Of a stretch of 36,555 bases of DNA, positions 5,775-17,257 are shown piece after piece (the stretch's first letter is position 1; the number at the start of each line of letters is the position of its first letter). Made by a program: the position numbers and the translations under genes. The notes below the pieces were generated by a model. That model was not told where the DNA came from, ran no database searches, and saw only the letters and a program-made list of their open reading frames with translations. This DNA is from Terriglobia bacterium (GTDB taxonomy: Bacteria; Acidobacteriota; Terriglobia; Acidiferrales; UBA7541): positions 1 through 36,555 of the forward strand of contig JAIQEV010000055.1 of assembly GCA_020073585.1 (NCBI GenBank). The letters are read 5' to 3'.

Positions 5775-8744
<2,970 letters not shown>

Positions 8745-8974: not shown

Positions 8975-11893
8975 TTAGGTGCGGCTGACGGCTACTTGGC
9001 CGCGGCGGTGGCTGCGGTTGCCGAGGTGGGCGGCCAGCGGGGTGCTCCCCAGCTCCAGCAGCAGCTTGCGCAGGCGCAGGCGTTCTTCCAGGTCGATCTC
9101 CACAAATTCAAAGGCCATGGCCTGCGGGCGCGCTCCGCGCACCATGGCCTGGGCCTTGATGGGGCGCACGCCGCTGGAGAACTTCAGGGCCAGGAGGGTG
9201 CCGGGAGCGAGGTGGCGCTCGCTGGCGCCCACGCCTCCGCCGAGGTTCAGCTCGGCGACGGCAATCTTGAAATTTTCGTGCAGGTTGGTGGTCAGCGCGG
9301 TCACGCTGCGCGGCAGGCGCAGCCGGGCGTAGCGCCGCTGGCGGATGACCGAGGAGCCCGGCTCGGGGTCGATGGGCTCGAAGGTCAGGTCCTTGCGCTC
9401 CAGGCCGCTGGCGGCCAGGCGTTCCATGGCGATTACCGGATCGATGCGCATGAGAGCCTGGGCCGCGGCAATGCGCAGTTCCATGGCATGCACCCAGCGC
9501 CACATGTGGCGCACATCCAGGATCTGCTGCAGCGGCGCGCTGGCGGCCTGCGCGCGCAAACGCCCCAGGGCCTCGATGGCCTTCAGCCGCACGTAGCCGG
9601 AGGTGCGCTCGGCCGCGAGCAGTTCCAGCAGTTTGGGGATGCACTCGACGCGTCCGGTCATGCCCATTTCGTCCAGGGCCGAGGGCTGGATCAGCGGGTC
9701 CAGGGCGTCGAACAACGCCACCAATTGGCGCGCGCGGAGCTCCGCGGGCGCCGCGGACAATTGCCGCACGGCGCGGTCGTGGGCCGCGCGCGGCCACTGC
9801 GCCAGACGCACCGGCAGCACTTTTTCCACGGTCTCGGGCTCCAGCTGGCTTAGCAAGCCCACGGTTTCCACGGCGACCGCGGCCGGCGCGGTTTTCAGCG
9901 ATTCCCGTAGGTCCCGCACGCTCGGCTCGCCCAGGCCGCGCACGATCTCCGCCAGCAGTTCACAGTCCTCCCGGAATCCGCAGCGCCCGAAGCGGGTGGT
10001 AAGGTAGCGCAAAGCCGCCTGCGACATCTGGCACAGAATGTCCAGCAGGCCGTCGGGGAGCCGCCCATCCCGCAGGGCATCTTCGATGAACTCCGGCAGG
10101 CGCTCTTCGGCACCGATGCGCGGGCGCAGACTCGAGAGGGCGCCCGGGCGCTGCGCTTCCACGCCTTCCAGGGAGGCCAGGGCCTGCTGCATGGCCGGAT
10201 AGCAGCGCAGGCCCGCCGCCTCCTGGCTCAAGCGCACAAAGGCCGCGCTGATGATGGTCTGCAGGTCGGGCTCCGTCTCGACCGCCAGCTGCAGGCCCAG
10301 CCGGCGGATCGCTTCCATCAGCGCACTGCCGTCGCCGCTGCCGTAGAGCGCCGCGAGCTCGGAGAGGCCGATGGCCGTGGTGCGGCGCGCTTCGGGCGCG
10401 GGCAGGGCGATGCACGAGCAATACTTCAGCAGGATCTCGTTGACCGTCTTGAGCTCGCCGCGCTTGACCATCGCCTCGAGATAGGCGCGCACGTTGCGCG
10501 GCGGCACGCACCAGGCTTCGTCCGAAGTCAGCACCTCGCGCTTGTTCTCTTCGGGCACCTGCTCCCAGAATTCCTGGTCCAGCAGTTCCGTGAAGCTTTG
10601 CACCTGCAGACCCGCGCCGGCCATGACTTCTTCGTGCTGTCCCAGGATCTTGCGCAGCCCCGCGATCTCCTGGTTCATGCGGTCGAGCATCTGCTTGACG
10701 GCGTTGACGCGCAGCTCCCCGCGCTCGTAGCTATCCAGGGCGAAGCGGATGGCGATGTGCTCGGCCAGGCGCAGGAGCATGGGCTTGTCCGGTTTTTCGG
10801 TGGGGGCCTGCGCCGCCAGCCCGGCCAGGGCCTGCTGCAGGGTGGTCTGGGCGCGCACCGGCAGGGCCGAGAGCCGCGATTGGAAGGTGGGCAGATCCGC
10901 CTTGGCCGCGGGGTCTTTGTGGCTGCGGCCCAACTGCGCAAACAGGGAGAGCATCGAGCGCACATCGTCCTCGGCCACCAGAAACCCGCCGGGGCCGCCC
11001 GGGAGTGCCGCGGCGCCACCCGGAGTGACCGGGCCGCCGCGCAGCAGCGCGCTGGCCTTCAGCCATTTCCCATGCCTGCTCACGTCGCTGCCGCCGGGGC
11101 CCGCTACCGCCGCTCCGCCAGGGCCTGCTCCGGGCCCTGGGGGACCTCCTGGGCCAGTTCCCGTTCCGCCCCCGCCGCCTTGTCCGGCGTCCCAAAGATT
11201 TCCGGACCCACCGCCACCCCAACCGGCGCCAGCGGCCCCGCCGCCTCCGCCCGGCCCGCCGCCGGGGCCAGAGCCCGCTCCGGAGCCTGGGCCACGCGAG
11301 CCTTCCGCGGCCAGGAGCAGTTGCAGCATCTTCTGGGGATCTTCGAGGAAATCCTTGAACTTATCGCCGGCCGCGCCCAGAACTTTGGCGGTGAGCTGCG
11401 CCGCCGCGGTCACGCCGGGCGTCGAAGTGTCTTCGGCCACGAAGCGGAACTCGTTCAGGCGGATGCTGGTGTCGCCGGCCAGGGCGGACTTGAGATGTTC
11501 GGCCAGGGCCTGGGGCTTGGTGTGGCCCGTGGGAAAGGCGCGCACGAAGCGCGCGAACTGCGCCTGGGTCACGCTGGGAGCGAAATGGATGCTGGCGATG
11601 CCGGCGGAGGAGAGAATTTGCGCGAAGCTGCGTTCGGCGGCGGCTCCGCCGAGCGGCTCGCCGTCAATCAGGATCTGGTCACCGGAGGAGCCCAGAAGGA
11701 TGCCGCTGCCGCCGCTTTCCTGCAGCGCAGTGTGCAGTTCGCGCCAGGTGGTGTCGAATTGCGCGTTCGAGCCGTGCCAGGAACTGCCGCCCCTCACCAC
11801 AGTAGGCGCAGGGCAGACGCGAAACAAGCCCCGGCTCGCGATGCTGTGGCGTTTAGGATAACCGAACCCGCTGCGGCCCTTTCCGGTAGGCAA
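8975..11893 (-). CDS. HEAT-repeat-like protein with C-terminal PilZ-like domain
   Basis: A large protein (up to 972 aa) of unknown role. The N-terminal 190 residues contain an alpha/beta segment (ILLGSSGDQILIDGEPLGG, FAQILSSAGIASIHFAPSV). Residues 199-268 are a Gly/Pro-rich, collagen-like linker. Residues 300-840 are helical with HEAT-like repeats (for example SGYVRLKAIEALGRLRAQ). The last 110 residues resemble PilZ: RRYAR (RxxxR) near 853, then ELNLGGG where [D/N]xSxxG is expected, and EFVEIDLEERLRLRKLL. The second motif is degenerate (Glu for Asp, Asn for Ser), so cyclic-di-GMP binding is doubtful. No signal peptide or membrane segment is visible. The start is uncertain: the first 40 codons look non-coding, and a GTG near 11800 is an alternative. 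I infer a signalling or scaffold role only. Confidence 0.7.
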   Translation of the reverse strand: MPTGKGRSGFGYPKRHSIASRGLFRVCPAPTVVRGGSSWHGSNAQFDTTWRELHTALQESGGSGILLGSSGDQILIDGEPLGGAAAERSFAQILSSAGIASIHFAPSVTQAQFARFVRAFPTGHTKPQALAEHLKSALAGDTSIRLNEFRFVAEDTSTPGVTAAAQLTAKVLGAAGDKFKDFLEDPQKMLQLLLAAEGSRGPGSGAGSGPGGGPGGGGGAAGAGWGGGGSGNLWDAGQGGGGGTGTGPGGPPGPGAGPGGAAVAGPGGSDVSRHGKWLKASALLRGGPVTPGGAAALPGGPGGFLVAEDDVRSMLSLFAQLGRSHKDPAAKADLPTFQSRLSALPVRAQTTLQQALAGLAAQAPTEKPDKPMLLRLAEHIAIRFALDSYERGELRVNAVKQMLDRMNQEIAGLRKILGQHEEVMAGAGLQVQSFTELLDQEFWEQVPEENKREVLTSDEAWCVPPRNVRAYLEAMVKRGELKTVNEILLKYCSCIALPAPEARRTTAIGLSELAALYGSGDGSALMEAIRRLGLQLAVETEPDLQTIISAAFVRLSQEAAGLRCYPAMQQALASLEGVEAQRPGALSSLRPRIGAEERLPEFIEDALRDGRLPDGLLDILCQMSQAALRYLTTRFGRCGFREDCELLAEIVRGLGEPSVRDLRESLKTAPAAVAVETVGLLSQLEPETVEKVLPVRLAQWPRAAHDRAVRQLSAAPAELRARQLVALFDALDPLIQPSALDEMGMTGRVECIPKLLELLAAERTSGYVRLKAIEALGRLRAQAASAPLQQILDVRHMWRWVHAMELRIAAAQALMRIDPVIAMERLAASGLERKDLTFEPIDPEPGSSVIRQRRYARLRLPRSVTALTTNLHENFKIAVAELNLGGGVGASERHLAPGTLLALKFSSGVRPIKAQAMVRGARPQAMAFEFVEIDLEERLRLRKLLLELGSTPLAAHLGNRSHRRGQVAVSRT

Positions 11894-12205
11894 GCCTCCA
11901 GAGCCCTCGTCGGCAGAGGCTTCCGGGAGAGCAACCCCTTATCCAGTTGCGGCTTGCGGGCCTCAGGCATAAACTGACGATTGGGTGCAGCCGTTACTCC
12001 TGACCGGGCGGGCGCCCAGCGCGGGCGTTTCGTCCAATTCTGTGACCGTGAAGCGGTCAGCTATTTTTGCGACCGCGAAGCGGTCGATTGTTTTTGTGAC
12101 CGCGAAGCGGTCAACCGGCCCGGCCGTGCAGGGTTTCATTGCGGATTTTCCGGCGCGGGATGCCACGCCGTGGCGCCGGATTCCAACTCCTATTTGGGAA
12201 GCACA
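11894..12205. other. Divergent intergenic region with palindrome cluster
   Basis: About 310 bases lie between the start of the HEAT/PilZ gene and the start of the membrane-protein gene. The frames that cross it look non-coding. The recognisable content is the triple palindrome at 12044-12112. I see no convincing promoter hexamers. Confidence 0.6.
12044..12112. repeat. Three GACCGCGAAGCGGTC palindromes at 27-bp spacing
   Basis: Copies lie at 12044-12058 (one T change), 12071-12085 and 12098-12112. Each is a 6-bp inverted repeat, GACCGC/GCGGTC, around GAA. The distance between copies is exactly 27 bp, and the spacers are T-rich (CTATTTTTGC, GATTGTTTTTGT). A fourth relative is at 17222-17236. 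They could be binding sites on one face of the helix or a small interspersed repeat. Confidence 0.85.
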
Positions 12206-12910
12206 ATGCCCGATCAGCCATCACCGGAACGCTTCAAGGCCGAAATGCCGGAGATTCCCGGTTTGGACAAACCGGCCACGGGGGCGCGCCCGGGCGGGTT
12301 CTTCGCCGGGTTGAGCCCGGCGGCGCGGCTGGCCGGCGGCATCGGCTTCGTGCTGCTCGCCGGGCTGCTGTGCGCGCTGGTATTTCTGCGCCCGAAACGC
12401 GGCGAGCGCGTGCAGGCCGAGCCCGCCCCGCAGATCGTGGTGCCGGCCCCCGCCGATACACCGCCGCCCCCGGTGGCCACCGAAAGTCAGCCGGTGATCG
12501 CCACGGTGGCCGAAATGGCCGAGCCCTGGTCGTCGAAAGAGTTCTTCTTTTACAACCGCCTGACGGGCGCCAATGTGCCGGCGCTGCTGGTGCGCCTCCC
12601 GGGTGGCTCGGCGTCCTCCGCCAACTCCTACTGGGGGTTTTCCCTGGAAGTGCCCCTGGGCCGCTGCCAGTTCGAATACCTCACGGATGTGCGCAAGCTC
12701 GCTGCGGATTACGGCTTCCGCGCCAAGCACCCTATGGTGGGAGATCCCTGCAGCCGCACGGTCTTCGACCCCCTGCGGATGATGAGCCGCCGCGGTAACG
12801 TCTGGGTGCGCGGAGCCATCGTGCAGGGCTCGGACCTGCGACCGCCGTTGGCCATCGAAATCAAGATTCAGGGCAAAGAGATCTCCGCGGTGAGCATGGA
12901 AGAGCTCTAG
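12206..12910 (+). CDS. Single-pass membrane protein, function unknown
   Basis: I do not recognise this 234-aa protein with confidence. A cytoplasmic N-terminus of about 40 residues is followed by one membrane helix (residues 42-61, LAGGIGFVLLAGLLCALVFL), a Pro-rich spacer (72-92) and a globular domain outside the membrane. The domain holds Cys154, His175 and Cys182 (HPMVGDPCSRTVFDPL), then VRGAIVQGSDLRPPLAIEIKI. The last part faintly recalls the C-terminal strands of Rieske domains (PCHGSxFD ... GPAPRPL), but the full C-x-H/C-x2-H ligand set is missing, so an Fe-S cluster is unlikely. The ATG at 12206 is chosen because GGGAAG lies just upstream; codons further up run through the palindromes. 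No same-strand partner is adjacent. Confidence 0.75.
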   Translation: MPDQPSPERFKAEMPEIPGLDKPATGARPGGFFAGLSPAARLAGGIGFVLLAGLLCALVFLRPKRGERVQAEPAPQIVVPAPADTPPPPVATESQPVIATVAEMAEPWSSKEFFFYNRLTGANVPALLVRLPGGSASSANSYWGFSLEVPLGRCQFEYLTDVRKLAADYGFRAKHPMVGDPCSRTVFDPLRMMSRRGNVWVRGAIVQGSDLRPPLAIEIKIQGKEISAVSMEEL

Positions 12911-16709: not shown

Positions 16710-17221
16710 AATCGTAATCACTCCTCCACGAAATTTTCTACATCTACCCAAAAATGCAAAACCCGAAGGCAACCCGCGCTGGACAAGCGCTCAATTCGCA
16801 TGTACCCGGATGCTCGAACGCACAAGTTTTTCCGGATCCCCCAAAGTACTTCAATCCCTAAAACACTTTTAGAAGCAGGTAATGAACCGATCTCCGCTAT
16901 TGGTGTTATATGTACTTGCACGACACATTCCACAGGAGACGGTTTTCCGGAAAGAGGCATAGGAGACGTAAGGTTCATTTTTTCAATGAATTAGAAGCAA
17001 TCTCGCAATGATACATATACTATTTCATTACAAATCTCTACCAATGGACATAAATCTTATGGATTTTAGAATCTTTATGGAAAATATAAGTACTGGGACT
17101 GCTATTTTCATTTGGAACTTCGCAAGGCCATCCGCAAGTTGCCTCACCGTATGCCACGTCGTTCAAATTTCCTGCTCTTCGCGGATGCGATCGCCGTCGT
17201 TTCCGGCGTCATTGTCTGCGT

Positions 17222-17236
17222 GACCGCGAAGCGGTG
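17222..17236. repeat. Fourth copy of the GACCGCGAAGCGGT palindrome
   Basis: This matches the 12071-12085 copy at 14 of 15 positions; the last base is G instead of C. It lies about 60 bases upstream of the M24 peptidase start and just upstream of a promoter-like element. Confidence 0.75.
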
Positions 17237-17257
17237 AAGCTGCCGCGCCGCTTCCGC

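Follow-up and report, generated by a model that had tools for sequence, protein, structure and literature searches.

REP sequences, REPINs, insertion sequences of the IS200/IS605 family and the hairpins of class 3 TnpA-Y1 enzymes are the described systems closest to the repeat family reported here. The REP of S. maltophilia is 23 nt long, its perfect 8-bp stem enclosing a 3-nt loop, and TnpA-REP enzymes are described as cleaving at CT and, in Marinomonas, also at CA, with the GTAG foot of the Marinomonas system shown to help choose the cleavage site (PMC8266576). REPs of the CGTC type are reported to occur mostly as head-to-head dimers (PMC3733652). REPINs have been presented as miniature mobile DNA moved in trans by RAYTs, with the inverted doublet proposed to be mobile and singlets immobile, and their dissemination was called a central but unresolved issue (PMC3116915). 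IS608 inserts 3′ of a tetranucleotide that remains in the left flank and carries guides 5′ of its hairpins, which pair at the hairpin foot with the target and the ends, the cleavage sites being TTAC on the left and TCAA on the right (PMC5934647); the IS200/IS605 family is described as producing no larger target duplications (PMC2817692). Finally, class 3 Y1 enzymes are described as rare, with Acidobacteria among their hosts, and as accompanied by high-copy hairpins with the foot CnGA, of which Solibacter usitatus has about 600 copies without GT[AG]G (PMC6006769).

The window analysed here is a stretch of 36,555 nucleotides (contig JAIQEV010000055.1, assembly GCA_020073585.1) from a Terriglobia bacterium, G000, whose 4.03 Mb genome was compared with that of a relative at 88.8% identity, G009. 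Pattern matching placed copies of a 15-nt palindrome at 12044, 12071 and 12098, exactly 27 bp apart, with a distant fourth at 17222, in agreement with the spacing and positions in the original prediction, which had been made from the sequence alone. The palindromes are real inverted repeats, as had been claimed, of 6 bp, or 7 bp in copies bordered by a T and an A; they are not perfect, however, as the arms enclose a 3-nt GAA loop, and only two of the four copies match the 15-mer exactly, the first (GACCGTGAAGCGGTC) and the fourth (GACCGCGAAGCGGTG) carrying one mismatch each. The divergent intergenic setting of the array was borne out by the called gene on its left and the open reading frame on its right (Table 1), and the gene downstream of the fourth copy was assigned by Pfam to the M24 peptidases, again as predicted. 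The right-hand neighbour had no Pfam or NCBIfam match at E 0.001. With unit limits taken from the genome comparison, positions 12035-12115 consist of three contiguous 27-nt units without remainder, directly behind the putative TCGTC target. In the alignment with G009, the orthologous gap holds two units, whose spacers are unlike those of the window, and two units also stand at the orthologous place of the decayed fourth copy. Within the window alone, eight matches with at most three mismatches compare with a shuffle mean of 4.34, and 6 of 100 shuffles reach eight, which is hardly above chance. We consider it likely that the three palindromes of the array are copies of a lineage-specific, non-coding, REP-like element made of a single hairpin, which an HUH (Y1) enzyme moves in single-stranded form. 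The neighbouring genes would then be bystanders.

Table 1. Features of the window around the palindrome array and the distant fourth copy.
Feature	Position	Strand	Basis or remark
Left neighbour, HEAT-repeat-like protein	8975..11800	-	Pfam HEAT_2 slightly below cut-off
Putative insertion target TCGTC, adjoining the first unit	12030..12034	+	Fits WCNWY
Unit 1, 27 nt: left arm CAATTCTGT, hairpin GACCGTGAAGCGGTC, right end AGC	12035..12061	+	Limits from genome comparison
Unit 2, 27 nt: left arm TATTTTTGC, hairpin GACCGCGAAGCGGTC, right end GAT	12062..12088	+	Limits from genome comparison
Unit 3, 27 nt: left arm TGTTTTTGT, hairpin GACCGCGAAGCGGTC, right end AAC	12089..12115	+	Limits from genome comparison
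Right neighbour, 234-residue protein	12206..12910	+	ATG at 12206; own gene caller starts at 12245
TCATT, probable target of the fourth unit	17209..17213	+	Sequence
Fourth unit, decayed, 26 nt; right end GTGAAG, not GTCAAC; upstream of M24 peptidase gene	17214..17239	+	

The genome scan proposed along with the original prediction returned 237 matches to the 15-mer with at most one mismatch in G000, 98 of them exact, against 7 for the reversed control. Stem sites with any loop numbered 237 in G000, 253 in G009, 100 in G005, 26 in G025, 22 each in G026 and G010, and 16 in G023, and the remaining 29 of the 36 genus genomes had 0-13 such sites (controls 0-5), some of these copy-poor members standing above their control (G029, 13 vs 2; G027, 11 vs 1). 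The exact 15-mer was not found in the 25 searched relatives outside the genus. A search for the exact tandem pair across 84,980 species genomes, from which records near the window's own genome were possibly omitted, returned four contigs, all titled Acidobacteria bacterium isolate gp2, and viral contigs held no exact match to one tandem-pair pattern. Among the genomes searched, high copy number is confined to a few members of one Acidobacteria (gp2) genus. With hundreds of copies, a lineage-restricted range among these genomes, and both filled and empty sites, the small interspersed repeat that had been offered as one of two readings is the one that held. The family shares with REP sequences and REPtrons a short hairpin, hundreds of copies, a mostly intergenic location and restriction to a lineage. 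Unlike the GTAG and CGTC REPs, its 27-nt unit carries neither tag and has the foot GTGA, and its sharp limits and target motif are visible in filled and empty sites. In contrast to REPtrons, no RAYT gene flanked by the unit's palindrome was found in G000, in G009 or at the 30 loci that were checked among other genus members.

The anatomy of the unit was derived from 0.85 Mb of G000 (69 stretches and the window) and 0.98 Mb of G009 (71 stretches), all picked around listed copies and therefore giving no density estimate. They contain 428 stems with no more than one mismatch, and the flanks are recognisable in 415. The unit is 27 nt long and consists of a 9-nt left arm (consensus approximately TGTATGYGT), the hairpin GACCGC-GAA-GCGGTC, and AAC. 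Its loop is strand-specific: with orientation taken from the flanks alone, 338 of the 415 loops read NAA and 4 read TTN, the commonest forms being GAA (253), AAA (70) and AGA (21), and orientation of 191 units by the loop instead recovered the same flanks. The right limit is sharp, with a KL of 1.25 bits at +17, 0.06 at +18 and 0.11 at +19; on the left, the unit's own signal starts at -9, and a separate WCNWY motif lies ahead of it, from -14 to -10. The second stem pair, scored in 419 units with good flanks, was A-T in 377, G-C in 6, A-C in 13 and G-T in 13, and the six double changes, some of which may share descent, compare with about one expected under independence. A wobble test for the GAA-strand hairpin, on a set whose 183 two-mismatch units include many chance matches, gave 31 wobble-keeping against 22 pair-breaking transitions. 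Computed folding hardly separates the strands (-7.5 and -7.3 kcal/mol) and so adds nothing to the strand argument. The GCGAAGC core is an extraordinarily stable single-stranded DNA hairpin.

Two Acidobacteria genomes at 89% identity provide a natural set of filled and empty sites from which the mobile unit, the target rule and the formation of arrays can be read. The alignment of G000 and G009 covers 385,917 bases and contains 99 unit sites, a few of which are chance matches in genes; 92 are anchored, and 65 differ in unit number. At 24 of these 65 sites the length difference is exactly 27 times the difference in units, the largest case being seven units against one (162 bp). At the other 41 the lengths do not fit exactly: in many the discrepancy is a few bases of flank, some have undergone larger rearrangement, and a few are chance matches. 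Alignment gaps of 15-170 nt with a unit-like match inside them or within 20 columns were exact multiples of 27 in 34 of 62 cases, compared with 15 of 263 gaps of the same size range without such a match (Fisher p 8e-18). Among the 15 filled/empty pairs with exact net length, a cut at -9/+17 was the best or tied for best in 13, and in the remaining two, L092 (AGA loops) and L102 (GGA loops), it had one identity fewer than the best cut. These 15 pairs show neither duplication nor loss of the target. Filled and empty sites fix the mobile unit almost to single bases, and they indicate that a lone hairpin can move.

The sequence ahead of the unit follows a rule of its own. WCNWY occupies positions -14 to -10 at 155 of 289 first or single units, compared with 2.5% at control offsets, TCCTT being its commonest form, and the narrower TC.T[CT] stands just 5′ of 88 of the 289 (1.1% at control offsets). 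In the pieces examined from G005, G025, G026 and G023, WCNWY precedes 27 of 49 first units against 3.4% in the control. Of the 15 empty alleles only 7 carry the motif; as this is still well above the 2.5% of the control, WCNWY must be, at least partly, a property of the target. The aligned genomes show units arriving at new sites as 27-nt blocks, or multiples of them, 3′ of WCNWY, and both the mobility and the target rule are well supported. The original prediction is extended here in two respects: the palindromes recur at exactly 27 bp since this is how long an inserted unit is, and that unit obeys a 5-nt target rule.

As in IS608 and ISDra2 of the IS200/IS605 family, the 27-nt unit has a hairpin and inserts 3′ of a short motif that is kept in the left flank, with no target duplication and with a right end resembling the target; it differs in having no gene and a single hairpin instead of two ends. 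We infer a Y1 enzyme as the mover, and single-strand chemistry is likely. Under such a model, the strand with the GAA loop would move as single-stranded DNA, and an HUH/Y1 tyrosine nuclease of the RAYT/TnpA-REP or IS200/IS605 type would act in trans, placing its cuts after the target and after the right end of the unit. The GA of the hairpin foot (GTGA) may base-pair with TC, either in the target or at the right end, in the manner of the IS608 guides. With respect to the lagging-strand template, local GC skew was in agreement at 178 against 102, a signal that in G009 weakens or vanishes with smoothing. The single-strand model is directly testable with short oligonucleotides. Dispersal by a different recombinase, whether an integron-type integrase acting on folded sites, an IS110-type recombinase or a reverse transcriptase, would be the next candidate, as precise insertion without duplication fits some of these as well and the GGTCAAC of the unit's right side is one base off the integron core, RYYYAAC. 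The target, however, is one-sided, the sequence 3′ of the insertion is hardly conserved, as the values at +18 and +19 show, and 27 nt is far below the length of attC sites, which leaves this route unlikely.

Enzymes of the kind envisaged for the hairpin's movement are encoded in both genomes. G000 has one RAYT-type gene (L049, G000:C59:61346), which scores over the NCBIfam NF047646 cut-off, and G009 has three Y1 matches over the Pfam cut-off and one divergent match. The GACCGC palindrome, with up to two stem mismatches allowed, is absent from the ends of the G000 gene and of all four G009 matches; other palindromes, identified partly by reading the sequence, lie near the ends of the G000 gene and of three G009 Y1 genes. 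The units nearest to two G009 Y1 genes are 1.2-1.4 kb off and not at the gene ends. Y1 counts do not track copy number across the genus, as G034 has 15 Y1 matches and one any-loop site, and G025 has no Y1 match and 26 sites. The RAYT-type genes at L049 (G000) and at L182 and L119 (G009) have inverted palindromes of the type GCCCCAC...GTGGGGC on both sides. A RAYT-type gene of G009 (L115, approximately 7614-7928; G009:C1:420614) has several GTAG-type palindromes, for example ATGTAGGCGCCGGGCTTTAGCCCGGCC, on both sides as judged by eye, and this locus has the appearance of a classical REPtron within the genus.

The hairpins of class 3 enzymes are similar to the 27-nt unit in their high copy number and occurrence in Acidobacteria, and the feet CnGA and GTGA share their last two bases; the first foot base differs. 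No class 3 gene was seen among the translated Y1 matches, which were inspected without a class 3 profile. Guide pairing by a class 3 Y1 enzyme was considered and set aside, the likeness of GTGA to CnGA being a resemblance only.

The formation of arrays follows from the ends of the unit. Its last five bases, TCAAC, also fit WCNWY, so that the right end of a resident unit can serve as target for the next, which then inserts immediately behind it and yields head-to-tail arrays at exactly 27 bp. Neighbours 24-31 bp apart have the same orientation in 127 of 127 cases in G000 and G009, 119 of them at 27 bp, and in 12 of 13 cases in the pieces of G005, G025, G026 and G023, the exception being a G025 pair in opposite orientation at 26 bp. 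This arrangement differs from that of CGTC REPs, since the units stand head-to-tail, and from REPINs, since single hairpins insert. In 22 of 119 pairs of adjacent units the left arms agree at 8 or more of their 9 bases, compared with 3.3% of random pairs, and local duplication may account for part of array growth. That slippage, the local tandem duplication of a hairpin motif without any transposition step, could account for the family as a whole is improbable, as the arms of most neighbours differ (a mean of 5.9 of 9 bases identical, 4.5 in random pairs) and single 27-bp units at new sites behind a 5-nt target are left unexplained. The family behaves like a derivative of REPs or of IS200/IS605 elements, yet it has no REP tag and no RAYT gene with its palindrome in the flanks, and it is not a REPIN. 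We found no description of this 27-nt element family in the open-access papers searched.

The position of the units relative to genes, which were called with our own hexamer script rather than a standard gene finder, bears on whether they have a regulatory role. Of 280 sampled clusters, 213 were intergenic and 64 lay in called genes, though genes cover 83-84% of the stretches, so that genic copies are strongly depleted. The intergenic clusters were divided 70/122/21 among divergent, tandem and convergent gaps, where intergenic length predicts 65.6/122.5/24.9, and neither a promoter bias nor a gene-end (terminator) bias was found among the 280 clusters. The palindromes had also been read as operators joining the two loci of the window, and the proposal that a dimeric regulator or a nucleoid protein binds them in a 27-bp phase can point to the inverted repeat itself, to the array between divergent genes, and to the 21 aligned shared units, in which the palindrome is 94.6% conserved against 78.3% for the left arm and 85.8% for the anchored flanks (727 positions). 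This reading does not agree with hundreds of copies where few sites are expected, a copy number that the original prediction itself had named as speaking for a selfish repeat and not an operator, with clusters that show no promoter bias and occur also within genes, with the exact 27n steps between filled and empty sites, or with an asymmetric loop; moreover, a 27-bp step does not bring successive sites round by complete helical turns, and G009 does not share the spacer sequences of the window. We therefore reject the operator reading on copy number and position and regard such a role as very unlikely.

The T-rich spacers noted at the outset do occur in the window, but they are no feature of the family, TTTT following within 15 nt of the stem in 17 of 413 units against 7 of 413 in an upstream control stretch; in the window they are a local accident. 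Intrinsic terminators or RNA elements are the least credible explanation, for although units 1 and 2 of the window score terminator-like (a hairpin followed by a T-run), T-runs are this rare in the family, clusters have no preference for gene ends, and positions 11700-12400 had no Rfam match up to E 1; the intrinsic terminator was accordingly rejected. There are 12 instances of a called gene that terminates 2 nt into the palindrome, using the TGA at the unit's edge as its stop codon. Across tandem gaps and genes, the GAA strand was antisense to the surrounding genes more often than sense (112 vs 74).

Seven of the 24 sites with exact length difference are within called genes in both genomes, and all seven are in frame, adding 9 or 18 residues, as the 27-bp length of the unit entails. 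The isocitrate lyase of G000 (L102:3593-4981) contains 18 extra residues, corresponding to two units, that are absent in G009. This stretch is also absent from two solved isocitrate lyase structures whose alignments were compared and from the 14 other isocitrate lyase rows recovered from the 30 genus loci sampled, a comparison of 15 proteins in which two rows are the same G033 gene, with L297 out of frame there. As the 18 residues are lacking in all other isocitrate lyases compared, they represent an insertion in G000 and not a loss elsewhere. In this way a protein can be lengthened by nine or eighteen residues at once. Rickettsia palindromic elements are likewise palindromic units inserted in frame in protein genes; at approximately 100-150 bp they are much longer, and their hosts are unrelated bacteria.

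A more far-reaching interpretation is possible, and we put it forward tentatively. A single hairpin of 27 nt, possibly among the smallest DNA units seen to transpose, might move without an inverted partner; its right end, serving as its own target, would build head-to-tail arrays, and its length of nine codons would make it a ready-made cassette of nine residues. The mover would then be a Y1-type enzyme from a group that has yet to be paired with a substrate like this one.

Other repeats were observed alongside the 27-nt family. Near L135:8922, in the alignment of L135 and L107, there are several copies of TGTTCCACGTGGAACA, with a unit inserted among them in G009; this group of copies looks like a parS cluster. 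Within the window, a different intergenic repeat occurs at 998-1079 as two copies 53 bp apart (CGCTTCGCTCAGGATGACA...), and a tandem array with units of 7, 14 and 21 bp (CACGAGTCACGAATCACCAGT) occupies positions 2474-2540.
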